This document shows positions 1 to 53,374 of a stretch of 53,374 nt of DNA, one piece after another. Position 1 is the stretch's first letter. Every line of letters begins with the position of its first letter. A program made the translations under genes and the position numbers. This stretch comes from a virus. Below the pieces are notes generated by a model, which made no database searches, had not been told where the DNA came from, and was given only the letters and a program-made list of their open reading frames with translations. The stretch covers positions 1-53,374 of IMG/VR virus record IMGVR_UViG_3300044807_000061; one strand, written 5' to 3'.

Positions 1-198
1 CCTCCGCTGGCTGCAGCAGTCCTACCTCGCCGAGTCGACCATCAGCCGCCGGTTCGGCGTCGTCGCCACCTTCTACCGCCGCGCCGTCCGAGACCGGCTC
101 ATCACCTGGGACCCGACAGCCGACATCGAACGCCCCGAGGTCGACTACGAGAAGCAGCACCGGACCTGGCTCAGCCCACTCGAGCTCGCCCGGTTCCT
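1..198 (+). repeat. Left copy of near-identical terminal repeat
   Basis: Bases 1-198 match 53177-53374 with four mismatches, at positions 13, 23, 50 and 91; the last 107 bases are identical. Three of the changes are silent in the recombinase frame and one changes Tyr to Asp. This is best read as the overlap of a circularised contig, with strain variation or end-of-contig error. Confidence 0.95.
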
Positions 199-746: not shown

Positions 747-765
747 GTCCCGCTGCACACTGGAC
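747..765 (+). promoter_or_regulatory. Late operator-like dyad GTCC-N11-GGAC, site 1
   Basis: GTCCCGCTGCACACTGGAC lies three bases before the GTG start of the 769 gene. The same 19 bases recur exactly at 43659-43677. The outer GTCC/GGAC arms are symmetric and the inner 11 bases are asymmetric. No clear TANNNT -10 box precedes this copy. Confidence 0.7.
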
Positions 766-3819: not shown

Positions 3820-3847
3820 CGTCCGAGCGGCTGTCCGGTCTGCGCCG

Positions 3848-3872
3848 TACCGTGTCCCGCGACACGAAGGAC
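3848..3872 (+). promoter_or_regulatory. Late promoter with operator-like dyad, site 3
   Basis: TACCGT (3848-3853) fits an actinobacterial TANNNT -10 box. It runs straight into GTCC-CGCGACACGAA-GGAC (3854-3872); with one more base each side the arms read TGTCC/GGACA. The predicted transcript start falls inside the dyad. No convincing -35 is seen. Confidence 0.6.
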
Positions 3873-3891: not shown

Positions 3892-4182
3892 ATGACGACC
3901 ACACCGACCGAGTCGACGACGCCGGTCAACTTCATGCGCCTGGGCGAGGGGCCGATCGCGCCCGTCACCGACGAGGCGTTCCGGCAGGTCTGGGAGCCCC
4001 GCGGCTACTCGGCTGTCAGCGACGCGGACGCGGAGGCTGCCGCGAACGCACCCGACCAGCCCAAGACCGAAGCCGCTGCTGCGGAGGCCCCCGCACCGCC
4101 GGCCGCATCCCCGGCAGCGCCTGGCCGGCCCGGCGGCGGCACCCCCGGCGGCACACCCGGAGGTCAGCCGCCGACCCCCTGA
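3892..4182 (+). CDS. Pro/Ala/Gly-rich small virion-module protein
   Basis: A 96-residue protein. It has a strong AGGAGG at 3881-3886, six bases before the ATG, and its own promoter (site 3). The first 45 residues look folded (NFMRLGEGPIAPVTDEAFRQVWEPRGY). The remainder is a low-complexity tail rich in Ala, Pro and Gly ending in repeated GGTPGG. It is the last gene before a strong hairpin and the tube gene. Strong initiation signals suggest a fairly abundant structural or assembly protein, perhaps a tail-tube partner. No family is recognised. Confidence 0.7.
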   Translation: MTTTPTESTTPVNFMRLGEGPIAPVTDEAFRQVWEPRGYSAVSDADAEAAANAPDQPKTEAAAAEAPAPPAASPAAPGRPGGGTPGGTPGGQPPTP

Positions 4183-4296: not shown

Positions 4297-4328
4297 TACG
4301 CTGTCCCTCGTCCCGCAGCACACGGGAC
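4297..4328 (+). promoter_or_regulatory. Tail-tube promoter with operator-like dyad, site 4
   Basis: A TACGCT -10 box (4297-4302) is followed by GTCC, and then by the dyad GTCC-CGCAGCACACG-GGAC at 4310-4328. The leader to the tube gene is about 110 bases and carries no other gene. The 4183-4423 gap holds only the terminator, this site and the ribosome binding site. Confidence 0.6.
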
Positions 4329-5833: not shown

Positions 5834-8800
5834 CCTCCGCCGCCTCTACGTCGAGCTGGCCACGAACGTCCGGCCGCTCGTCGCGGGGATGGCGCAGGGC
5901 TCCGTCGCGGTCAAGAAGCTCGGCAAGGACATCGGCGGCCTCGGCGCCGACATGGACCGGCTCTCAGCTAAGGCGACCGAGAGCAGCCGCCGCGTCGTCG
6001 AGGCGCAGAAGCGGATGGAGGCCGCGCAAGCTCGGCTGAACACCCTCCGCTCATCGGGCCGTGCCAGCGTGCAGCAGCAGGCCTCGGCGGAGGCGTCGCT
6101 CATCGCGGCGGAGCGGAACCTCGCTCGCGCCCACACCCAAGCCGCTGATGCGTCGAAGGCCGCGAGCGGCGGCATGAACGGCTTGACCGCCGCTGGCTCC
6201 ACGACGAAAGACATCCTGTCGAAGGTCGCCCTTGTGTCGGGTGTGACGCTCGCTGCTGGACTGCTGGCCAGCGCCAATGCGGCGCTGCAACTGGAGCAGC
6301 GTCTCTACAACGTGGCGTCGATCAGCCCTGAGGTTGCGAGCGACATGGGTCGCTATCGGGAACTGATCGTGTCCCTGTCGACCGAGCTGCCGCAGTCGGC
6401 GAACGACCTGTCCGAGGGCTTCTACAACATCGTCAGTTCGGGGTTCCAGGCCAACGATGCCATCGAGGTGCTGACTGCCTCCGCTCGCGCTGCCGCAGCA
6501 GGTCTGACGAGTACCGAGACGGCGGCGACGGCGATCAGCGCCGTGATAAACGCCTACGGCCTCAGCGCCTCCGATGCGGCGGACATCTCGGATGTGCTTT
6601 TCGAGACCGTCAACAAGGGTGTCATCAACTTCGATCAGCTCGCCCAGGGCGTCGGTGACTACGTCGGGACGGGCGCAGCAGCGAAGGTGAGTATCGGGGA
6701 GCTCGGCGCTGCGGTCGCCGCCATGACGCTGTCCGGTGTGACGGCTGCCGAGTCGGGGACGTCACTGAACCGGGTGCTGCAGTCGATCGTGCAGCCCAGC
6801 GACGCCCTGGCTGAGGCGCTGAAGAACGCCGGCTATGAGAGCGGCGCCGCGGCCCTTGAGGCTGATGGGCTGCACGGGGTTATGGAGAAGCTCCGCACTG
6901 CGACAGGCGGCAACGTCGAGCAGCTCCTCACGTTGTTCCCGGAGATGCGGGCGGCGCGTGGCGCGTTCGCCCTGATGGCCGCCGACGGGAAGAACTACAC
7001 GAACACGTTCGAGAGTGTGGCGACGGTCAACGGCCGGGTTGGTGCGACGCAGCATGCGCTCGCGGAGCAGCAGAAGAGCGGGTCCTACCAGATCACGGTC
7101 CTGAAGAATCAGGCGACTGCCCTCGGGATCGAGATGGGCCAGACGCTGCTGCCGGCCATCAAGTTCATCGTGGGGGGCTTTCACGATTTCTTCGCGATGG
7201 TGCGGGCTCTGCCTGGTCCGGTGATGGCGGTCGTCACCGTGCTGGCTGCCCTATCGGCAGCGGCGCTGCTGGGGGTTGGGGCGTTCATCCGCTACCGCGC
7301 GCCGGTCGCTCAGTTCCGTGCCAGCCTCGCTGCGATGCGCGCTGAGGGCAGTGCCCTCCCGGGGGTGCTAACTGGGGTGACTATCGCGGCGGCGGCCGTC
7401 GCGGCGGCGATGATCATCGGCACGATCATCTACGGCGAGTACGCGTCAGCGAAGGCCAAGGCGAAGCAGGCCACCGAGGACTTCACGGCGGCGCTCAAGT
7501 CTGAACAGCAGGGCCAGAAGGACGCGGTCATGACCTCCGCCATCGATCAGATGGTGAAGAACGGCAGCGCCGAGCGGCTGAAGAAGTACGGCCTGGACAT
7601 CTCGGACTACCTGAAGGGGATTCTGGGGTCGGAGCAGGACTATCAGCGTGAGCGGGACGCGATGTCCGCGGCGCAGAGGAACGCAGGGCCTGGGCACGTC
7701 AATGACTTCATTGAGCTGGCCGGGTCTCTCAACCAGATGCGGGGCTCGCTAGGGGATGCGCGTCTCGGCTTGAGCCTGCAGGCCGAGGCGCAGAAGGACG
7801 CCAGCGCAGCGACGAAGCAGGCACTCGGGCCGCTCGCCGACCTCGATGCAGCGCAGAAGAACGCGTCCGGCGCCGCGGTGGAGCTGTCCGCGTCGCAGAA
7901 GGGTCTCCGGGACACCCTCACCGGTCTCGTCGATGACGCTGCCGCGGCCAAGGATGCCCTGACGGGCCTGACGGACCCGGCGAAGGTCCTGTCGAAGGTG
8001 CAGCAGGACGCCAACGCGCCAGCCACGGAGGCGGCGGGGAAGAGCAAGGACGAGATCAAGGCGCAGAACCAGAAGGAGCTGTACGCGGCGCAGGACCGGG
8101 TCCGGTCGGTCCGGAACGGCACCAAGGCGCAGAAGCAGGCTGCGCAGGACAACCTGACCGAGGTGCGGCGGGCGAACAAGGCCCGGACCGATGCGCTCAA
8201 GGGCGGCAACGCGGACGCGCAGGTCACCCTCGACCAGTGGATCGTCGGGCTCCGGACGTCCGCGCGGCAGCAGGCGCAGTGGGAGGCGGACCTCACGACC
8301 GTCGCCCGCCGTGCCGGCCCCAATGTCGCCTCAGCACTTCGGCAGATGGGCGCTGATGCCATCCCGATCGTGCACGAGCTCGCGACCGGCACGAAGGCGC
8401 AGGTCGCTCAGGTCAAGAGCGCGCTGGACTCCCTCGCACCGGAGGCGCGGCATTCGCTGCAGGCCTTCACGGCCGAGCTCGCGAAGCAGGTCACGGACCA
8501 GGCCGCGTTCGTCGGGAACCTCGTGTCGCTCGCCGCACGTGGGCATCTGGCGGTCGCGCAGGAGCTTGAGAAGCTGCCGATGGAGCAGGCGGTGCCGCTC
8601 GCTGCGCAGGCCGCGAATTCGAGCGACAAGCAGCTGGCGCCGCTCGAGGCGACCTTGAAGCGGCGCGCGGCCATCGCTGGGGACGGGACGACGGAGGCGC
8701 TGGCGGCGGCGGTCGAGAGCGGCATGCAGGTCGTGACGCTCGCCGCCTCGAATGGTGCGCAGGCGGCGGTCGATGCGCTGGTGCAGCGGTTCGGGGATGT

Positions 8801-15078: not shown

Positions 15079-15103
15079 TACCCTGTCCAGTGTGCAGCAG
15101 GAC
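15079..15103 (+). promoter_or_regulatory. Lysis promoter with operator-like dyad, site 5 (reverse orientation)
   Basis: A TACCCT -10 box (15079-15084) is followed by GTCC-AGTGTGCAGCA-GGAC (15085-15103). Read on the minus strand the inner bases match sites 1 and 6 at 10 of 11 positions, so this dyad is inverted relative to them. It lies 17 bases before the endolysin start. Confidence 0.65.
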
Positions 15104-15120
15104 ACAGGACGGAGCAGCCG

Positions 15121-15849
15121 ATGACCGCGACCCTCGCCGCATGCCGATCCTGGCTCGAGCATCAGGTCGGCACCGTCGAGACCGGCGGCCCCGACGGCCA
15201 CAGCGGCAACCACGTCCGCTACTGGGACGACATCGGACGGCACGACCTCCAGGGCTCCTACTGGTGCGGCGCCCTCATGGACGCCATGGCCAAGGCCACC
15301 GGCCTCAAGCTCCCCGGCTCGATGATCGACACGACCGCCGGGGCGCTCGCGTTCCAGCGCGCCGGCCTGTGGGTGCCAGTCAGCAAGGGCGGGCAGCCCG
15401 GCGACTTCACCTTCTTCGCGTGGAACGGCCGGAAGGACTTCGACTCGATTGACCACGTCGAGTGGGAGGTGAAGCCGGTGCCCGGCGGCAAGCAGGAGGA
15501 CATCGGCGGCAACACCAGCGGCGTCGGCGACAGCGGGCAGGCGCAGAGGAACGGCGGGATGGTCGCCAAGCGCGTCCGCGACCGGCGGTTCATCGTCGGG
15601 TACGGCCGGCCGCAGTACGCCCCTGCCAAGCCGGTGATCGTGATGAGCAGCAACCCGTACAACTTCCACGAGCACATCGTCTACGCGACACAGTGGGCCC
15701 TCGACGTCCGCCTCACCGGCAGATGGGACAAGCCCACGGTCGCTGCGCTCATCGCGCTGAAGAAGCGCAACGGCTTCTCCGCCGACCGCGGCGTCGGCCC
15801 CAAGACCATCGCGCTGCTCTCCCAGATCCGCCACCCCCGGCAGATCTGA
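15121..15849 (+). CDS. Endolysin: CHAP amidase/peptidase plus peptidoglycan-binding domain
   Basis: A 242-residue cell wall hydrolase. The N-terminal CHAP-like domain shows the nucleophile Cys49 in GSYWCGAL and His112 in SIDHVEWEV. The C-terminal domain (about 185-238, RLTGRWDKPTVAALIALKKRNGFSADRGVGPKT) is a peptidoglycan-binding repeat. The start is supported by GGAG eight bases upstream and a nearby promoter. No signal peptide is seen, so export needs the holin-like proteins that follow. It heads the lysis cassette. Confidence 0.88.
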   Translation: MTATLAACRSWLEHQVGTVETGGPDGHSGNHVRYWDDIGRHDLQGSYWCGALMDAMAKATGLKLPGSMIDTTAGALAFQRAGLWVPVSKGGQPGDFTFFAWNGRKDFDSIDHVEWEVKPVPGGKQEDIGGNTSGVGDSGQAQRNGGMVAKRVRDRRFIVGYGRPQYAPAKPVIVMSSNPYNFHEHIVYATQWALDVRLTGRWDKPTVAALIALKKRNGFSADRGVGPKTIALLSQIRHPRQI

Positions 15850-18240: not shown

Positions 18241-19677
18241 TCAGAGCCACTCAAGCTGCACGCGATCGCGCATCTCTTGGCCGCGCTCCCCCGCGCAGAG
18301 GTAGACGGCTCGGAGGTAGGTCTTCAGGACTCGGTTCTGCTCCTCCGACTCCCAGTGTGGCCAGCCTGCCTCGATCCGCTTGGCGATGGTCACCGTGATC
18401 GTCACGGGCGCCATCGTCGACTCCTCGGCGTACGCGAGGTCGGCCAGGAGCCGCGACCGCTGCTCCTCGAGCTCGGCCGCCGCGTCCGCGTACGCGTGCT
18501 CCGTGAGCCGCTCGTTCGCCAGCGCCATCGTCAGGGTGCGCAGCGACCGCTCCACCTTCGCGAGCTGCTTGCGGATCTCCTGCTCCTGCGTCCGGATCGA
18601 GGCCTGCGCGATGCGCCGCTGTTCACGGGCATCCTTGTCATCACGGAGCCGCTTCGCGGTGGCGATGATGTCCTCGATGACCGCACGGTGGACGTCCAGC
18701 TCGTTGGGTGCGCCGATGCCAGCGCAGCTGCCGAGGTCCTGTCCCTGGCAGACCAGCGCGACCCGACGCTGCCCATCCCGCGTCCGACCGGGTTTCCGCT
18801 GAAGGATCAGCCCGCAGCCGGGCCGGCCGCAGCGGATCAGCCCCGCGAGCGGGTGGGCTGCCTGCACCGTCCGGGAAGGTGGCGACGGCCGCCCGAGCCG
18901 CTTCTGCACCCGCTCGAACAGGCGCACGTCAACAAGAGGCTCATGCTCACCGTCGTACACCTCGTCGCGGAGCCGGACCTTCCCGATGTACGCAGGGTTC
19001 CGGAGGACCTCCCGCACCGTCGTCGGCCGCGTCGTGACCCCGAGCAGCGGCGCGACGTCCCGGGCGATCTGCGCACATGACCAGCCGCTGTCGTACAGCT
19101 CGAAGATCCGGCGCACGACCGGCGCGGTCGCCGGATCGAGCTCGACTGCTCGCGGCGGGACACGGACGTACCCGAGCGGGACCTTCCCGTGGAAGTAGCC
19201 CATCCGCGCGATGTGCGTGGCCGTGTCAGCCCACTGCCTCCCCATCTGGTCGCTGTACAGCTGCGCCATGGAAAGGAACTGGGTGAGCATGAACTGCCCC
19301 TCGGGGCTGTCGTCGATCTGCTCGACGGTGCTCACGATGCTGATCCCGAGGTCTCGGAGCTCCTTGATGAACCGGAGGCTCTCGGCCGTGTTCCGGCCCA
19401 GCCGGCTCAGGTTGTAGACCGCGACGACGTCGACGTCCCCGGCCCGCGCGAGCGCACGGAGCTGCTCGATGCCGCTGCGGCTGAACGTTCTGCCGCTGAC
19501 GTCGATGTCCTGCACGACGTGCGTCTCCCGGAGCCCCTGCCGGCGCGCGTGGTCCCGCATCGCCTTCAGCTGCAGGTCGGGGCTGTGCAGGTCCTCGCGG
19601 CCCATGACGGCGCTGACCCGCACGTACAGGGCGGTGCGCTTCCCGGGGTTGGGGACGGCGGCGAGGCGGCGGCTCAT
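18241..19677 (-). CDS. Large serine integrase
   Basis: A 478-residue serine recombinase. The N-terminal resolvase domain has catalytic Ser22 in YVRVS, then SPDLQ, DIDVSG and YNLSRLGRN motifs. The recombinase domain carries GYFHGKVPLGY and NPAYIGKVR. A zinc ribbon follows (CGRPGC ... VCQGQDLGSC), and then a long coiled coil (about residues 355-430) that controls synapsis. ATG 19677 is chosen because it overlaps the previous stop as ATGA and sits just before the resolvase fold. It should integrate the phage between attP and attB. It is the last gene of the leftward lysogeny operon. Confidence 0.96.
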   Translation of the reverse strand: MSRRLAAVPNPGKRTALYVRVSAVMGREDLHSPDLQLKAMRDHARRQGLRETHVVQDIDVSGRTFSRSGIEQLRALARAGDVDVVAVYNLSRLGRNTAESLRFIKELRDLGISIVSTVEQIDDSPEGQFMLTQFLSMAQLYSDQMGRQWADTATHIARMGYFHGKVPLGYVRVPPRAVELDPATAPVVRRIFELYDSGWSCAQIARDVAPLLGVTTRPTTVREVLRNPAYIGKVRLRDEVYDGEHEPLVDVRLFERVQKRLGRPSPPSRTVQAAHPLAGLIRCGRPGCGLILQRKPGRTRDGQRRVALVCQGQDLGSCAGIGAPNELDVHRAVIEDIIATAKRLRDDKDAREQRRIAQASIRTQEQEIRKQLAKVERSLRTLTMALANERLTEHAYADAAAELEEQRSRLLADLAYAEESTMAPVTITVTIAKRIEAGWPHWESEEQNRVLKTYLRAVYLCAGERGQEMRDRVQLEWL

Positions 19678-19979
19678 CCGAGTCGCTTGACGCTCCGTGC
19701 GCGCTGCCGGATCTCTTGGAGGCGACGGAGCCTCTTGACGAGCATCGGGTCGTGCACGAGCGCGGCGGGCTGGTCGATGATCACGCGGAGGAGTTGGTAG
19801 TAGCGGGTGGCGGAGAGGTCGAAGGTGTCCTTGATGGCTTGCTCCTTCGCCCCCGCGTACTTCCACCAGCGGCGCTCGAACGCGAGGATCTGCCGGTCCC
19901 TGTCCGTGAGCTGGTCCGGTGCCTCATCTGAGGTCGGATTTCGGCAGGTCGCCTCGGCTCCGCCGGGCATGTCGGTCAC
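19674..19979 (-). CDS. DUF3263 protein coupled to integrase
   Basis: A 101-residue protein. The core LTDRDRQILAFERRWWKYAGAKEQ followed by IKDTFDLSATRYYQLLRVIID and ALVHDPMLVKRLRR is the DUF3263 domain found in actinobacterial chromosomes, probably a helix-turn-helix fold. It starts at GTG 19979 (ATG 19970 also possible) and overlaps the integrase start by ATGA, so the two proteins should be made together. This suggests a role in integrase control or attP choice, but no function is established from sequence. Confidence 0.85.
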   Translation of the reverse strand: MTDMPGGAEATCRNPTSDEAPDQLTDRDRQILAFERRWWKYAGAKEQAIKDTFDLSATRYYQLLRVIIDQPAALVHDPMLVKRLRRLQEIRQRARSVKRLG

Positions 19980-20245
19980 GACGGCGACCGGACGGCGGAG
20001 GGCTGACTGATCCCCCGCTCGCGGCGGAGCGCAGCGACGAACACCTCATCGAAGGCGGGCGCGAGGGGATGCTGCAGCGCCTCATCCACACCGGCCCAGT
20101 AGACGTCCTGGCTCGGGTGGCTGGCGTCGACGGCACGCTCGTTCGCGGTCCACCAGTTCCGGCGCGCGGCGGCGAGGACCCCGACGACGGACCGGGGCAG
20201 CCCGGCGGCGAGGGCCCTGTCGATGTCGCCGGCGCCGCGGGTCAT
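19976..20245 (-). CDS. Hypothetical protein of lysogeny operon
   Basis: An 89-residue protein with ATGA-type overlaps at both ends. It looks all-helical: IDRALAAGLPRSVVGVLAAARRNWWTANERAVDAS, then VYWAGVDEALQHPLAPAFDEVFVAALRRE. No DNA-binding motif or enzyme motif is recognised. Its fixed place between an XRE regulator and the DUF3263 gene suggests a part in lysogeny control. Confidence 0.65.
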   Translation of the reverse strand: MTRGAGDIDRALAAGLPRSVVGVLAAARRNWWTANERAVDASHPSQDVYWAGVDEALQHPLAPAFDEVFVAALRRERGISQPSAVRSPS

Positions 20246-20574
20246 CGCCGGCGCCGTTCGAGGAGCAGGTCGACCAGGGCGAGGACGTGCTCCCGCTCCT
20301 TGCGGGTGAGCCGCTGGGCCCGACGCGGCAGGACGAACGGCTCGTCGGTGTCGCTGTCGCCCACCCCGGCGGCCCGGGCGACCCGCCCGAGCGGGAGGCT
20401 GAGGCCGCGGGCGAGGCCGTCGAGGGTGTCGTCTTCGACGCTGGTCCGCTGGCCCTGCTCGATGGAGTGGATGGTGCTGCTCGACAGGAGCCCACCGGAC
20501 CTGTCGGCGACCTCCCGCAGCGACAGGCCCAGTCGGGCCCGCTCCGTCTTCACCAGCTGCTGCAGCGTCATCAT
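20242..20574 (-). CDS. XRE-family (Cro/CI-type) regulator
   Basis: A 110-residue protein. Residues about 5-62 form an XRE helix-turn-helix (LVKTERARLGLSLREVADRSGG ... STIHSIEQG ... LDGLARGLSLPLGRVARAAGV). The C-terminal basic tail ends LALVDLLLERRRR. It starts at ATG 20574, with a second Met adjacent. It is the second HTH gene of the operon after the ImmR-like gene, so it may be a secondary repressor acting on lytic or integrase promoters. Confidence 0.85.
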   Translation of the reverse strand: MMTLQQLVKTERARLGLSLREVADRSGGLLSSSTIHSIEQGQRTSVEDDTLDGLARGLSLPLGRVARAAGVGDSDTDEPFVLPRRAQRLTRKEREHVLALVDLLLERRRR

Positions 20575-21666: not shown

Positions 21667-21946
21667 GACGCGAGGGTCGGGACTGTCGCCGCTGATAGCA
21701 ACTGCCCTCCTCCGCCGTGTCGTGTCCGTCGACCGGGACCGCTCCCGAACATAGTGCCGTGTCTAAATAACTTGGAAAACACGCAGGTCAGAGCGTTCAT
21801 GCAGGTCACAGGCCGGAACCACACGACTGTCATTTCTTGACTTCCATCGGGACTGGTCCCACATTCTGATTCCGAGTTAGTTGACATGGAGGACGGGACC
21901 AGACACGATGCTCACACCCGAGAAGAGACGTAGGAGGCGGCGCGTG
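21667..21946. promoter_or_regulatory. Divergent immunity control region
   Basis: The largest gene-free stretch (280 bases), between the leftward lysogeny operon and the rightward early operon. It is unusually AT-rich for this genome around 21761-21780. Possible rightward -35 boxes are TTGACT (21837-21842) and TTGACA (21881-21886), with weak -10 boxes. A possible leftward -10 is TATGTT (minus strand, 21753-21748). Repressor half-site candidates GGGAC(C/T) occur at 21679, 21735 and 21895, plus a palindrome GGGACTGGTCCC at 21849-21860. Confidence 0.6.
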
Positions 21947-28722: not shown

Positions 28723-29232
28723 GGGCGCACTACCGCTCCCAGGTCGCGACGGTCGTTGCCGCCGCCGCGCTGTTCGTCTCCTTCTGCGCACTCATGGCCA
28801 CCGGCCAGAACAAGGACCGCATCGCGCAGCTCGAGCAGCGGCGCTCCCCCCACAAGCTCGACGTCACCCGTCCAGACCCCGCGAGTGACGTCGACCCCCG
28901 CGAGCCGGTCCCGGCGCAGCCTGGCAGGTCACAGGCACCCCGAGGGCGGCTCTGCGCCCAACGGAACCGGGACCGGCTCGCGGCTCTCCATCACGGCTTA
29001 CTGCTGGACCGGGAACCGCACCGCAAGTGGCCTCTGGCCGCAGGTCGGGATGGCCGCCGGCAACCGCTGGCCGGTCGGGACGGTCCTGCACGTGGAGGAC
29101 GTCGGGACCGTCGTCATCCGGGACCACATCGGATCAGGCAGCGACCTCGACATCTACCTCGGCCGCGACGGCTGCGAACAACGCGCCCGCCAGTTCGGAC
29201 GGCGCCAACTACGCGTGGAGGTCACCGGATGA
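28719..29232 (+). pseudogene. Membrane-anchored 3D-domain protein interrupted by a frame break
   Basis: The start (ATG 28719, ATGA overlap with RuvC) reads a signal/membrane segment (VATVVAAAALFVSFCALMATG) and a short coiled linker. The end (TGA 29230-29232, overlapping the next ATG) is in a frame one base further on. That frame reads a 3D (Asp-box) beta barrel: LSITAYCWTGNRTASG, VGMAAGNRWPVGT and RDHIGSGSDLDIYLG. The distance is 514 bases, not divisible by three, and neither frame has its own missing half. A single-base error, or a +1 shift, near 28846-28960 would rejoin them into about 170 residues. A GTG at 28885 could start the 3D part alone. Confidence 0.7.
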
Positions 29233-30041
29233 GCGTCCAGCACGGCACCGTCGCCGGCTACAAGGGCTGCAACGGCGGAGGGCGCAACGCCTGCCAAGAC
29301 TGCCGAGACGCCAACAGCATCCGGGCCGCCGAACGCCGCCGCCTCAAGGCCTACGGCCGCAACAGCCCGACGGACCGGGTCGACCCGACCCTCACCATCC
29401 AGGCGCTTCATCTGCTCGCCGCGATGGGGCACAACACCGTCGCGGTGCAGCAGCTCACGGGCGTCAACAACACCATCGTCGCGAGGCTGCTGCGCGACGA
29501 GGCCTCCTGGATCTACCGCGAGACGAAGGACCGGGTCTTGTGCGGCCTGTCGTACGCGCTGATCCACCCGGAGTGGAAGCGCGACACCTGGTACGTCCCC
29601 AGCAGACGGTCGTTGCAGCAGATCCACAGTCTGCAGGCGCTCGGCTGGCCGCTGAACACGCTGATGGGGATGCTCGGGTACCAGCAGGCCAAGCAGCCGG
29701 TGCCGTGGCGCCGGGACCGCATGACACGTCGCAACGCTGAGCGTGTCCAGCAGCTGTACGACGAGCTGTCCGGGACGAAGGGTCCGAGTCGCATCGCAGC
29801 TGCGAATGCCGCGCGCCTCGGCTGGCACACACCCCTGGCCTACGACGACGACGGGCGGCTAATCGCGGAGGCGATCCCGAACGATCTGAGCCGCGCGGTG
29901 GAGCGCCGGGAGGACCGGCAGGCACGGGCCGCGCAGGTCGAGGAGCTGACCGGCAAGGGATACAGCACGGCTGAGATCGCTGAGCGGCTCGGCGTCACCG
30001 ACCGGACCGTCACCCGCGCCCGAGCAAGGAGATCCGCATGA
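29229..30041 (+). CDS. HTH DNA-binding protein (paralogue of 37661 gene)
   Basis: A 270-residue protein. The N-terminal Cys set (GYKGCNGGGRNACQDCRDANS) and RRLKAYGR precede helical DNA-binding repeats (QQLTGVNNTIVARLL, LQQIHSLQALGWPLNTLMGMLGY). A C-terminal HTH closes it (TGKGYSTAEIAERLGVTDRTVTRARAR). It shares this order with the 37661-38767 product, so the two are old duplicates. The family is common in actinophages and is annotated only as HTH protein. It is a candidate regulator of middle or late genes. Confidence 0.78.
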   Translation: MSVQHGTVAGYKGCNGGGRNACQDCRDANSIRAAERRRLKAYGRNSPTDRVDPTLTIQALHLLAAMGHNTVAVQQLTGVNNTIVARLLRDEASWIYRETKDRVLCGLSYALIHPEWKRDTWYVPSRRSLQQIHSLQALGWPLNTLMGMLGYQQAKQPVPWRRDRMTRRNAERVQQLYDELSGTKGPSRIAAANAARLGWHTPLAYDDDGRLIAEAIPNDLSRAVERREDRQARAAQVEELTGKGYSTAEIAERLGVTDRTVTRARARRSA

Positions 30042-35337: not shown

Positions 35338-35387
35338 CGACCAAGCACGCAAACGACAGCTCGGGTGCCGCTGGTGAGACACCGTGA
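35334..35387 (+). CDS. 17-codon bridging ORF
   Basis: ATG 35334 overlaps the methylase stop as ATGA, and its TGA overlaps the GTG of the next gene. The 17-residue product has no recognisable features. It may exist mainly to carry ribosomes across the gap and couple translation. Confidence 0.45.
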   Translation: MTTKHANDSSGAAGETP

Positions 35388-35626
35388 CGGCACCGCTCCG
35401 GGTCGTCGGGACCCCCGCCTACCGCGCCGACCTCATCCGGCAAGTCCAGGACCTCAACCGCATCAGCGCCGAACACCAGGCCCGCGCCGACGTCATCGGC
35501 GCCGAACGCAAAAGAGCCCTCGCCGAGCTCCGCGCCGACGGGATGACCTATAGCGAGATTGCCCGGGCGACCGGGATGCGGCGTGAAGACGTCCTCCGCA
35601 AGCTCGGCGTCAGGCGCAGCGGATGA
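35384..35626 (+). CDS. Small HTH protein
   Basis: An 80-residue protein from a GTG. A helical N-terminal half (QVQDLNRISAEHQARADVIGAERKRALAELRADG) leads into an HTH (MTYSEIARATGMRREDVLRKLG). It is coupled to the nuclease-helicase pair that follows. Likely a DNA-binding regulator or adaptor. Confidence 0.72.
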   Translation: MTAPLRVVGTPAYRADLIRQVQDLNRISAEHQARADVIGAERKRALAELRADGMTYSEIARATGMRREDVLRKLGVRRSG

Positions 35627-35973: not shown

Positions 35974-37664
35974 GGACGTACGGCAGCCTCGTCTACGGCC
36001 ACAGCAACGACAGCCCCACCTTCGCGCTCCGCACCGAACCGCACGTCATGATCCGCCTCAAGCGGCTGTTCCCCCGCGCCCAAGGCAGCCGCACCGGGCA
36101 CCTGTTCATCCGGGCGACCCCCGAAGTCGCCCGCGACCTCGAATGGATCCTCGACCGCTGGCCCCTCGACGTCACGCCCGTCGCACGCGACCAGATCAGC
36201 AGCCTCGCCGGCCGGCACCGGCAGACCGAAGACGCCGTCCTCCACATTCTCGAAGGACACCGCCGCAGCCTCCACCTCCAACGAGAACCAGCCCGGCCCG
36301 GCCGCGACTACCAGATCCAAGCCGCCGACATGCTCCTCGCCACCCGCCGGCTCCTCCTCGCCGACGAAGTCGGTCTCGGCAAGACCCAGAGCGCCATCCT
36401 CACCTTCCTCGACCCCGACACGCTCCCCGCCGTCTTCGTCACCCTCACCCACCTCCCCGTCCAGATGCAGCGGGAGATCGCCACCGTCACCCCGTGGCTC
36501 ACCACCCACGTCGCGAAACGCGGCACCCCCTACGACGTCGACACCGACATCCTCATCATCAGCTACTCGAAGCTCGCCGGATGGGTCGAGCACCTCAGCA
36601 AGGCCGACCTCGGGCTCGTCGTCTTCGACGAGATCCAAGAGCTCCGCCGCAACGGCACCAACCGCTACATCGCCGCCGCCCGCATCGCCGACCAAGCCCG
36701 CTATCGACTCGGGCTGTCCGCGACGCCCGTCTACAACTACGGCGACGAGGCCCACAACGTCTTCAGCATCCTCGCGCCCGACCTCCTCGGCGACCGCAGC
36801 GAGTTCCTCCGCGAATGGGGCGGACGCTCCACCTACGGCGGCAACACCCTCGTGTCCGACCCCACCGCCCTCGGCGCCTACCTCCGCGACCAGGGCCTCA
36901 TGCTGCGCCGGACCCGCGCCGACGTCGGCCGGCAACTCCCCGACGTCGTCCGCGTCACCCAGCCCGTCGACGCGGACCTGAGCAAACTCGACGAGGTCCA
37001 GGTCGAAGTCGAAGACCTCGCCCGCCGCCTCATCGACGGGCCCTCGGACGAACGCTTCCAGGCCGCCGGGGAGATGGAGTGGAAGCTCCGGAAGGCCACC
37101 GGGGAGGCGAAGGCGCCGTACGTCGCCGCGTTCGTCCGGATGCTCCTCGACAGCGAACCGAAGATCGTCCTGTACGGCTGGCACCGCGACGTCTACGACC
37201 GCTGGCTCACGCTCCTGGCCGAGTTCCAGCCGCGGCTCTACACCGGCACCGAGAACCCCAGGCAGAAGCAGCTCGCCGCCGACGCGTTCATCGACGGTGA
37301 CAGCCGCCTCCTCATCGTGAGCCTCCGCTCGGGTGCCGGGCTCGACGGGCTGCAGAAGGCCGCCCGCGTCTGCGTCTTCGGTGAGCTCGACTGGTCCCCC
37401 GGCATCCATCACCAGTGCGAAGGCCGGTTGCACCGCGACGGGCAGCCCGATCCGGTCGTCGCCTACTACCTCACCGCGGATGTCGGGTCGGACCCGACGG
37501 TGATGGAGGTCCTCGGCGTGAAGCGGGGGCAGGCCGAACCGATGCTCGACCCGAACATCAAGACGGTCGCGGTGCCCGATCAGAGCGCCGCCAGGATGCG
37601 GCGGCTCGCGGAGAGCTACCTCGACCGGCAACGCCGCCATCCCAGTCAGGCGGCGCTCGCATGA
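35970..37664 (+). CDS. SNF2-family helicase
   Basis: A 564-residue protein from GTG 35970. Motif I DEVGLGKT is at residues 132-139, motif II DEIQ near 220-223, motif III LGLSATP near 246-252, and motif VI region EGRLHRDGQ near 490. The N-terminal 110 residues are a separate domain. It uses ATP to move along duplex DNA and remodel protein-DNA complexes. With the 35623 nuclease it forms a replication or recombination pair common in actinophages. Confidence 0.93.
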   Translation: MRTYGSLVYGHSNDSPTFALRTEPHVMIRLKRLFPRAQGSRTGHLFIRATPEVARDLEWILDRWPLDVTPVARDQISSLAGRHRQTEDAVLHILEGHRRSLHLQREPARPGRDYQIQAADMLLATRRLLLADEVGLGKTQSAILTFLDPDTLPAVFVTLTHLPVQMQREIATVTPWLTTHVAKRGTPYDVDTDILIISYSKLAGWVEHLSKADLGLVVFDEIQELRRNGTNRYIAAARIADQARYRLGLSATPVYNYGDEAHNVFSILAPDLLGDRSEFLREWGGRSTYGGNTLVSDPTALGAYLRDQGLMLRRTRADVGRQLPDVVRVTQPVDADLSKLDEVQVEVEDLARRLIDGPSDERFQAAGEMEWKLRKATGEAKAPYVAAFVRMLLDSEPKIVLYGWHRDVYDRWLTLLAEFQPRLYTGTENPRQKQLAADAFIDGDSRLLIVSLRSGAGLDGLQKAARVCVFGELDWSPGIHHQCEGRLHRDGQPDPVVAYYLTADVGSDPTVMEVLGVKRGQAEPMLDPNIKTVAVPDQSAARMRRLAESYLDRQRRHPSQAALA

Positions 37665-38767
37665 CCAAGCTGACGTGTCCATCGTGTGGCTTCACGACCG
37701 CCCCCACGACTCTCGCCCGCGCTGAGTACGGCCTCAGCCAGCACAGCTGCGAACGGTACCGAACGAAGATCGCCGCCAAAGCCCGCGGTGAGGACCGCGC
37801 CCGCATCGACCGGACCCCGAAGCCGTGCCTGCACAAGGAAGCCCAGCACCAGCACGGCACCCACGCCTGCTACGTCCTCGACCGCTGCCGCTGCATCCCC
37901 TGCAAGACCGCGAACACGGCGTACGAACGCAGCCGGAACCGGCTGACCGCCTACGGCCGATGGCAGCCGCATGTGGACGCAGGACCGGTCCGCGCTCACG
38001 TCCAGGACCTCCAGAACGCTGGCCTCGGGCTCAAGCGCATCGCTGTGCTGTCCGGCGTGTCCAACGGTGCCCTGTCGAAGCTCATGTACGGCAAGCGGCA
38101 GCCCGACGGGACCCAGGTACCCAGCGTGCAGGTCCGCACCGACACCGCCGTCAAGCTGTTCCGCGTCACCGCCCACCCTGACCTGCTCGGGCAGACCGTG
38201 TGCATCCCCAGCAGCGGCACCATCCGGCGCCTCCAGGCCCTCGTCGCCGCCGGCTGGTCTCAGAGCAAGCTAGCCCGCGAGCTCGGGATGAATCCGAGCA
38301 ACTTCACCGGCGTAATGGTCCGGCCTGAATGCCAGACCCGTACTGCCCGAGCCGTCAGCGACCTCTACGAGCGGCTAGCGCCAGTGCCGCCGCCCGAGGA
38401 CAGCCACCGCGACCGGATCGCAGCCTCCCGCGCCCGCAACCGTGCCTCAGCCGCCGGCTGGCCGCCGCCGCTCTGGTGGGATCCCGAGGACCTCGACGAC
38501 CCCACCTTCAGCGAGCACCTCCGCTACCTCAACGTGGAATCGAGAAGGAGCCATCACGACGTCGACCCGGTCGCCGTCGAGGAGGCGATTCGGGGGAACA
38601 CGACCGTCACGCTGACGATCGCCGAGCGCCGTGAGGTCATCCGCCACCTCCATGCGCTCGGCCTCAATGACCAAGACATCCAACGCCGCACCGGCATCAC
38701 CGACCGAACCTGCGTCCGGATTCGCCGCGAGCTCGACCTCCCTGCCAACCGAGCAGGAGCCGCATGA
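37661..38767 (+). CDS. HTH DNA-binding protein (paralogue of 29229 gene)
   Basis: A 368-residue protein. An extra N-terminal CPSCGF zinc element is followed by KPCLHKEAQHQHGTHACYVLDRCRCIPCKTAN. Then come NRLTAYGR and helical repeats (KRIAVLSGVSNGALSKLMYGK, IRRLQALVAAGWSQSKLARELGM). A C-terminal HTH (ALGLNDQDIQRRTGITDRTCVRIRREL) closes it. The order mirrors the 270-residue product at 29229, so it is a longer duplicate. Candidate regulator; target unknown. Confidence 0.78.
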   Translation: MTKLTCPSCGFTTAPTTLARAEYGLSQHSCERYRTKIAAKARGEDRARIDRTPKPCLHKEAQHQHGTHACYVLDRCRCIPCKTANTAYERSRNRLTAYGRWQPHVDAGPVRAHVQDLQNAGLGLKRIAVLSGVSNGALSKLMYGKRQPDGTQVPSVQVRTDTAVKLFRVTAHPDLLGQTVCIPSSGTIRRLQALVAAGWSQSKLARELGMNPSNFTGVMVRPECQTRTARAVSDLYERLAPVPPPEDSHRDRIAASRARNRASAAGWPPPLWWDPEDLDDPTFSEHLRYLNVESRRSHHDVDPVAVEEAIRGNTTVTLTIAERREVIRHLHALGLNDQDIQRRTGITDRTCVRIRRELDLPANRAGAA

Positions 38768-43607: not shown

Positions 43608-43652
43608 GCCGTCACGTCCGGAAGCGCCCGTTTCGTTGTTTCACGTGGATCG

Positions 43653-43677
43653 TGCCGTGTCCCGCTGCACACTGGAC
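43653..43677 (+). promoter_or_regulatory. Terminase promoter with operator-like dyad, site 6
   Basis: TGCCGT (43653-43658) is a weak -10 candidate, followed by the dyad at 43659-43677, identical in all 19 bases to site 1. The ATG of the next gene starts two bases after the dyad. Confidence 0.65.
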
Positions 43678-45563: not shown

Positions 45564-45606
45564 GGCGGTCGGGCGCGGCGGCGAGGGGTTGGTGCTGCTG
45601 CGCCCG

Positions 45607-45631
45607 TACCGTGTCCCGCGTGACACAGGAC
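45607..45631 (+). promoter_or_regulatory. Late promoter with operator-like dyad, site 7
   Basis: A TACCGT -10 box (45607-45612) followed by GTCC-CGCGTGACACA-GGAC (45613-45631); TACCGTGTCCCGCG is shared with site 3. The predicted transcript start is at or next to GTG 45620, so the following gene may be leaderless. Confidence 0.62.
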
Positions 45632-48824: not shown

Positions 48825-48844
48825 GCGCTCGACACGCCGAGCGT
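48825..48844 (+). terminator. Short hairpin after scaffold gene
   Basis: CGCTCG (48826-48831) pairs with CGAGCG (48838-48843) around six bases, three bases after the stop. It may be a terminator or processing site that separates scaffold from capsid expression. Confidence 0.5.
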
Positions 48845-48849
48845 CCTCT

Positions 48850-48885
48850 GTCCTGCTGCACGCTGCACACAGGTGTGCGTAACCT
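48850..48885 (+). promoter_or_regulatory. Capsid-unit leader: degenerate dyad, inverted repeat and -10 candidate
   Basis: GTCC-TGCTGCACGCT-GCAC (48850-48868) is one base off the late operator consensus. It overlaps a perfect repeat GCACAC-AG-GTGTGC (48865-48878). TAACCT (48880-48885) could be a -10 box. This 166-base gap probably drives decoration and major capsid genes. Confidence 0.45.
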
Positions 48886-52862: not shown

Positions 52863-52868
52863 TACGGT
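52863..52868 (+). promoter_or_regulatory. Possible -10 box upstream of tyrosine recombinase
   Basis: TACGGT resembles the TAC(C/G)(G/C)T boxes of the late promoters but has no GTCC-N11-GGAC dyad. It precedes two hairpins and then the recombinase start, so transcripts from here would pass through both hairpins. Confidence 0.35.
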
Positions 52869-52874
52869 CCCCAG

Positions 52875-52894
52875 CGTCTCCCAAAACGGAGACG
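52875..52894 (+). terminator. Hairpin upstream of recombinase
   Basis: CGTCTCC pairs perfectly with GGAGACG around CAAAAC. It lies about 95 bases after the fibre gene and may end late transcription before the recombinase. Confidence 0.6.
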
Positions 52895-52896
52895 GC

Positions 52897-52924
52897 CCCG
52901 CCAGGTGGTTGCACACCTGACGGG
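52897..52924 (+). other. 28-bp dif/lox-like candidate recombination site
   Basis: Left arm CCCGCCAGGTG, six-base spacer GTTGCA, right arm CACCTGACGGG. The arms match at 10 of 11 positions when inverted. The 11-6-11 layout is that of XerCD dif sites and near that of loxP. It lies 19 bases before the tyrosine recombinase start. The same bases could instead act as a terminator stem, so the recombination role is a hypothesis. Confidence 0.45.
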
Positions 52925-52943
52925 ACCTAAGGACACCACCCAC

Positions 52944-53374
52944 ATGGAGGTGGCGGCCATGCCGTCATACGCTACTGCCCTGCTCCCCGCCGGTCTCGTC
53001 GCCGGGGACATCCCCAACCTGCGACCCGAAGACCAAGCCATCGCCGGCTTCTTCAGCCGCATCCGAAACGAGAAGACCGCCCGGCTCTACAAGCACGACC
53101 TCAAGGTCTACCTCAGCTGGTGCGCCGAGCAGAACGTCGACATCCTCAACGTCCACCCCGTGCAGGTCGAGCTGTACCTCCGCTGGCTCCAGCAGTCCGA
53201 CCTCGCCGAGTCGACCATCAGCCGCAGGTTCGGCGTCGTCGCCACCTTCTACCGCCGCGCCGTCCGGGACCGGCTCATCACCTGGGACCCGACAGCCGAC
53301 ATCGAACGCCCCGAGGTCGACTACGAGAAGCAGCACCGGACCTGGCTCAGCCCACTCGAGCTCGCCCGGTTCCT
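52944..53374 (+). CDS. Tyrosine recombinase, N-terminal part (split by window end)
   Basis: The first about 143 residues of the recombinase whose catalytic part is at 2-718. ATG 52944 or ATG 52959 starts it; neither has a clear ribosome site. EDQAIAGFFSRIRNEKTARLYKHDLKVYLSWCAEQNVD and HPVQVELYLRWLQQS then LAESTISRRFGVVATFYRRAV form the helical SAM-like core-binding domain of Xer and phage integrases. The frame continues off the end and rejoins at base 2 with no shift once the 198-base overlap is removed. Confidence 0.92.
   Translation, partial: MEVAAMPSYATALLPAGLVAGDIPNLRPEDQAIAGFFSRIRNEKTARLYKHDLKVYLSWCAEQNVDILNVHPVQVELYLRWLQQSDLAESTISRRFGVVATFYRRAVRDRLITWDPTADIERPEVDYEKQHRTWLSPLELARF
53177..53374 (+). 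repeat. Right copy of near-identical terminal repeat
   Basis: This matches bases 1-198 with four mismatches, all within its first 91 bases. Subtracting it gives a circular unit of 53,176 bases. Confidence 0.95.

Follow-up and report, generated by a model that had tools for sequence, protein, structure and literature searches.

In temperate phages, the usual view is that an activator or antiterminator switches on the late genes, which the repressor silences only indirectly, and dispersed operators usually include the early promoters. In phiC31, repeats spread over the genome are bound by a large repressor; the palindrome TACTCACGTGAGTA, with 15 exact copies, we take to be the conserved inverted repeat family of that phage. 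The stoperators of cluster A phages (L5, TipsytheTRex) are 13-bp asymmetric sites, bound by a monomer, whose orientation follows transcription (PMC9283540). In the Bacillus phage SPbeta, the 15-bp element SPBRE is bound by MrpR, a repressor of recombinase fold (PMC10516654), and the SAS of cluster K mycobacteriophages is a 13-bp asymmetric sequence with a proposed role in translation initiation (PMC3203893).

In the present study, we analyzed the whole of the IMG/VR record IMGVR_UViG_3300044807_000061 (53,374 nt, hereafter the window), which is a phage of a high-GC bacterium. Computation revealed a symmetric 26-bp element that is restricted to late gene gaps, is tied to TANNNT boxes and recurs in a second phage. 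Its copies, with the neighboring genes identified from family matches, are the following.

740 to 765: GTGTcgcGTCCcgctGCACactGGAC, 11 of 12 fixed bases, before gene 769-1119 of the minor head unit (769/1120), no TANNNT box.
2118 to 2143: GTCCcgcGTCCaccgGGACacgTGAC, 11 of 12 fixed bases, before gene 2168-2533 (unit at 2168), no TANNNT box.
3847 to 3872: GTACcgtGTCCcgcgACACgaaGGAC, 11 of 12 fixed bases, before gene 3892-4182.
4303 to 4328: GTCCctcGTCCcgcaGCACacgGGAC, 12 of 12 fixed bases, in the gap ahead of the 4424 gene, start of the tail unit.
15085 to 15110: GTCCagtGTGCagcaGGACacaGGAC, 12 of 12 fixed bases, before the endolysin gene 15121-15849 (endolysin by PHROGs).
43652 to 43677: GTGCcgtGTCCcgctGCACactGGAC, 12 of 12 fixed bases, before the terminase unit (genes 43680 and 43859).
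45606 to 45631: GTACcgtGTCCcgcgTGACacaGGAC, 11 of 12 fixed bases, upstream of the unit that leads to the portal gene (46270).
48843 to 48868: GTCCtctGTCCtgctGCACgctGCAC, 12 of 12 fixed bases, before the genes for head decoration and major head proteins (48989, 49700).

As in phiC31, where one palindrome is spread over the genome gaps, including the head, tail and pre-endolysin gaps, a single motif recurs in many gene gaps of the window, well beyond chance, and in both phages that carry it the element mostly lies on or near TANNNT boxes, that is, predicted promoters. The phiC31 palindrome, however, has another sequence, is shorter and nearly invariant, and occupies early and late regions, whereas the window element is late-only; the latter is absent from phiC31, where our model of it scores at most 8.7. 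The cluster A stoperators are similar in standing at many promoters and short gaps genome-wide, but the window element is 26 bp long, symmetric and tied to -10-like boxes, and its core at 15085 is reversed relative to its gene. SPBRE is likewise a repeated intergenic element at promoters, bound in SPbeta by the master repressor. The SAS/ESAS repeats of cluster K also stand at the start of a subset of genes, some with inverted repeats; SAS itself, GGGATAGGAGCCC just before start codons, differs from the window element in sequence and place, the latter being symmetric and lying over promoter boxes. The best reading of the elements is thus as a variant within the dispersed-operator kind represented by phiC31 repeats, L5 stoperators and SPBRE, a variant because the defining sequences of the families tested are not found in it and because, with no element in the early gaps, the early lytic promoters typical of the kind are left alone.

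The element is a compound palindrome of the form GTNC-N3-GTNC-N4-GNAC-N3-GNAC, with quarter-sites 7, 8 and 7 bp apart; read as half-sites, it presents two heptads close to GTCCCGT-GTCCCG opposite their mirror image, and its 7/8/7 spacing amounts to two 19-bp dyads that overlap with an offset of 7 bp. With a symmetrised weight matrix, nearly every dyad had a second-rank match displaced by exactly 7 bp, and the 26-bp palindrome results from putting these two registers together. Nine window positions carry at least 11 of the 12 fixed bases, compared with 0.33 per shuffled genome; eight of the nine are the late-gap sites, and the ninth (42964) is inside a gene. All 12 are present at four window sites and at none in 40 shuffled genomes. 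Among 1300 four-part architectures made of the same letters, the 3/4/3 spacing ranked first, with 9 matches against a mean of 0.34 and a next best of 5.

The sequence-only reading had described a shorter form, a 19-bp dyad GTCC-N11-GGAC, at seven sites, whose coordinates, arms, spacing and inner bases we found to be exact; the 19 bases at 747 are indeed those at 43659, and 15085 in reverse differs from them by one base. The dyad is real and not a product of chance, occurring nine times in 53,374 bases against 3.0 expected, a number reached by 0 of 100 shuffles. With gaps assigned from the gene calls of a codon model, on which these assignments depend, seven copies fall in gaps (0.34 expected, p 8e-8) and two inside genes (11969 and 38843), the latter with an inner sequence that does not match the other seven. 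A screen of dyads of every arm length from 4 to 6 and every spacer from 0 to 24, ranked by excess in gene gaps and given no motif beforehand, placed it at the top; as a positive control, the same screen recovered the phiC31 palindrome. The description was nevertheless too short, covering three quarters of the 26-bp palindrome, and the seven copies, though all genuine, left out an eighth (48843-48868), one base off the 19-bp rule.

All eight elements lie in or at gaps of the virion and lysis region, and the early region has none. The proposal that the early operon is free of sites agrees with a comparison of gaps of at least 45 bp, scored for the seven original sites, in which 7 of 14 late gaps and 0 of 15 early gaps held one (Fisher p 0.002); the 26-bp element is absent from the same 15 early gaps and from the early switch. 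That every site falls in a gap between virion or lysis genes is true in general, except that the dyad at 45613 crosses a possible GTG start (gene called 45620) and counts as a gap site only if that gene begins further in. The switch itself is located as follows.

21667 to 21946: switch gap, flanked by the leftward ImmA-like module and by early genes that run rightward.

This region, flanked by an ImmA-linked HTH-like gene and a rightward gene, contains two promoter-like pairs of boxes, TTGACT-N17-CACATT and TTGACA-N17-CACGAT, with a GGGAC repeat in each spacer, namely CATCGGGACTGGTCCC and a near copy in reverse. Because the switch has its own GGGAC repeats and no 26-bp element, the early and late genes are apparently under different proteins; the early switch would be run separately, probably by the ImmA-linked HTH protein.

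TANNNT is the usual actinobacterial form of the -10 element, and in the window it is rare, with 22 occurrences in 53 kb on both strands together. Five of the nine plus-strand boxes in gaps adjoin 26-bp elements.

3848 to 3853, plus strand: TACCGT, -10-like box inside the first heptad of the 3847 element.
4297 to 4302, plus strand: TACGCT, -10-like box abutting the 4303 element.
15079 to 15084, plus strand: TACCCT, -10-like box abutting the 15085 element.
45607 to 45612, plus strand: TACCGT, -10-like box inside the first heptad of the 45606 element.
48880 to 48885, plus strand: TAACCT, -10-like box 11 bp after the 48843 element.

When seven sites were placed randomly in gaps, at least four had a box no more than 20 bp upstream in only 2.5e-5 of trials. 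The earlier claim of a box running directly into the dyad at four sites applies to 3854, 15085 and 45613; at 4310, the box sits 7 bp further up from the dyad, directly against the 26-bp element. Three of the eight window elements have no TANNNT box. Over both phages, box positions counted from the first base of the element are mostly -6, -4, +1 or +3, with a few at +28 to +37.

The second phage is IMG/VR 3300031450_000204 (G050; 53.6 kb, 70% GC), which came to light when viral contigs were scanned with a 14-base version of the element; this gave 82 stretches, mostly with single matches. A model built from the window alone finds three strong sites in G050. Gaps occupy 8.25% of the G050 genome and hold 8 of the 10 best matches of this model. 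One of these eight had led to the contig; without it, 7 of 9 is still far from chance. Under a combined model, which includes three of G050's own sites, the nine best matches are all in gaps. The gene neighbors are of the same kind as in the window: among the nine are sites after the terminase gene and before the portal, major head (two), tail and endolysin genes, and one precedes a replication gene. Nine of the 12 plus-strand TANNNT boxes in gaps of G050 are near elements (P 5e-7), and such boxes stand in or beside 8 of 9 elements there, as against 5 of 8 in the window. Few proteins are common to the two phages, which are mostly unrelated; these include the replication initiator (2e-24), an XRE protein encoded at 20242-20574 in the window (1.5e-16), the tyrosine recombinases (8e-9), the tape measure (6e-6) and, weakly, a small HTH protein (8e-5). 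The regulon is known so far from only these two phages.

A shared late regulon under one DNA-binding protein, as the sequence-only reading had proposed, is well supported by the common late element and its recurrence in G050; the revision concerns its length of 26 bp, its eight copies and a placement that resembles that of a repressor site. We lean toward the view that the eight palindromes are dispersed operators of one phage-coded protein over the late units, likeliest a repressor and probably of the XRE type. The TANNNT boxes would then be host-type -10 elements, and a protein on the element would cover the -10 and start region and block RNA polymerase. We infer repression rather than activation, as well as the XRE identity of the binder: a repressor suits a placement over the -10/start region, which is that of most elements, better than an activator does, and offsets between element and box that range over more than 40 bp are most simply read as steric repression. 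Two dimers or a tetramer may occupy the four quarter-sites (forward, forward, reverse, reverse; 7/8/7 bp), and two dimers would sit on the two overlapping 19-bp dyads offset by 7 bp. If this is true, the virion and lysis genes would be silenced or timed directly, through an operator that coordinates most late promoters. The conserved late operator provides a concrete candidate regulator together with its DNA site, and the 26-bp model can serve to detect this regulon in high-GC phage contigs that lack annotation. A bolder version, which we put forward tentatively and with some doubt, is that a second repressor, apart from that of the early switch, uses a four-headed 26-bp operator to lock the virion and lysis promoters, the module being common to phages with largely unrelated structural genes.

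The phage has a temperate-type gene set, comprising a serine integrase, an XRE repressor match and an ImmA-like protease, and the candidate binder belongs to the following pair of genes.

20242 to 20574, minus strand: XRE-type HTH protein of 110 aa, matching the transcriptional repressor family phrog_12831 and HTH_31/HTH_3; best candidate for binding the element.
18241 to 19677, minus strand: serine integrase (phrog_95), on the same strand and downstream of the XRE gene.

Beside the integrase, 19674-19979 encodes a DUF3263 protein. The XRE HTH domain of 20242-20574 is confirmed by HTH_31 and HTH_3 matches over the cut-off, and its predicted model folds into helices in the XRE manner, the C-terminal helix being long; the nearest structures are those of RghR, SinR, Stl and DdrO, and 434 Cro is also similar. 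Among the four HTH candidates named by the sequence-only reading, it has by far the best counterpart in G050; the two proteins are 36% identical, constitute the only clearly shared regulator, and both match phrog_12831. The gene is close to an integrase gene in both phages, and because it is encoded in one leftward run with the serine integrase of the window, the protein is probably made in the lysogen. This assignment to the element is one of guilt by association, from two genomes. It is weakened by the lack of a 26-bp element at the XRE gene in either the window or G050, given that repressors often control themselves, and by half-site distances of 8, 15 or 22 bp, where about 10 would be usual with one XRE dimer. 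Such XRE proteins are frequently encoded next to integrases, and no element was found in Streptomyces and Arthrobacter plasmids with XRE homologues, among them a Streptomyces plasmid-prophage with a more distant XRE protein of the same type.

The late-only distribution would also suit a late activator, or a Q-like promoter-loading factor, from the early operon (e.g., 35384-35626, 29229-30041 or 37661-38767), and this we judge unlikely, though the strongest of the alternatives. The boxes show no clear -35 partner on inspection, 35384 has a weak counterpart in G050 (8e-5), and 29229 weakly matches a late-activator family through its HTH (2.5e-4); yet most elements lie over the -10/start region, their offset from the box varies by up to 43 bp, unlike known activator sites, and neither 29229 nor 37661 has a counterpart in G050. 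The latter two (29229-30041 and 37661-38767) are paralogues of phrog_1590, a family of unknown function, each with several HTH-like stretches.

A host transcription factor whose sites the phages use would account for an element common to two phages with mostly unrelated proteins, but the exact 19-mer is absent from 84,980 bacterial and archaeal genomes, and we consider this reading improbable. Still less probable, in our opinion, is a role for the tyrosine recombinase encoded across the record junction (~52.94 kb to 718), either as an MrpR-like repressor or as a recombinase acting at the elements. Its gene ends just ahead of site 740, the phage already has a serine integrase, G050 too has a tyrosine recombinase (8e-9), and in SPbeta a recombinase fold serves as master repressor (PMC10516654); such recombinases are nevertheless common in phages, its catalytic residues appear by eye to be intact, unlike those of MrpR, and the element centres differ between copies, which is incompatible with recombination and led us to reject the elements as recombination sites. 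Finally, GC-rich palindromes are frequent, and the GCCC-N11-GGGC matches of related prophages (G007 and G008) are terminator-like hairpins, but the shuffles, the architecture scan, the gap and late bias, the second phage, an Rfam search without match and arms too short for an RNA hairpin or terminator make it most implausible that the elements arose by chance in GC-rich DNA or are promoter or terminator features of the ordinary kind.

Relatives found through the terminase, major head, portal, tail and recombinase proteins were distant only, with no element in the DNA scanned; the exception to this distance was one 7.4-kb contig that has the recombinase gene in common with the window. The exact 19-mer did not occur in the viral collections searched. 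Other contigs with a single exact match mostly showed no second strong site in the stretches scanned, or single matches only. One contig (G046) was set aside as a chance occurrence of a single site; another (G079) has two sites above chance, but one overlaps coding sequence, neither has an adjoining TANNNT box, and the contig yielded no shared regulator. VWB has no element. We also rejected TGTGCCACA of prophages G001, G003 and G004, a dispersed dyad of their own that is unrelated to the window element; often followed by CCATTCGAATGG-like bases, it stands upstream of several genes and is probably the operator set of these prophages. A further prophage, G002, has five GTTCC-N6-GGAAC inverted repeats clustered in one gap (L114 19122-19253).

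The ends of the window (1-198 and 53177-53374) repeat each other over about 198 bp with a few mismatches, and the genome is therefore probably circular. The gene that spans this junction is a complete one for a 311-aa tyrosine recombinase, situated within the virion gene cluster. Together with its upstream region (52863-53374 and 1-628), it is 88-91% identical in DNA to positions 6486-7430 of the 7.4-kb viral contig (L130), which also breaks inside the recombinase gene and whose major head gene shares only about 30% identity with its window counterpart; the segment looks like a module that was exchanged recently.
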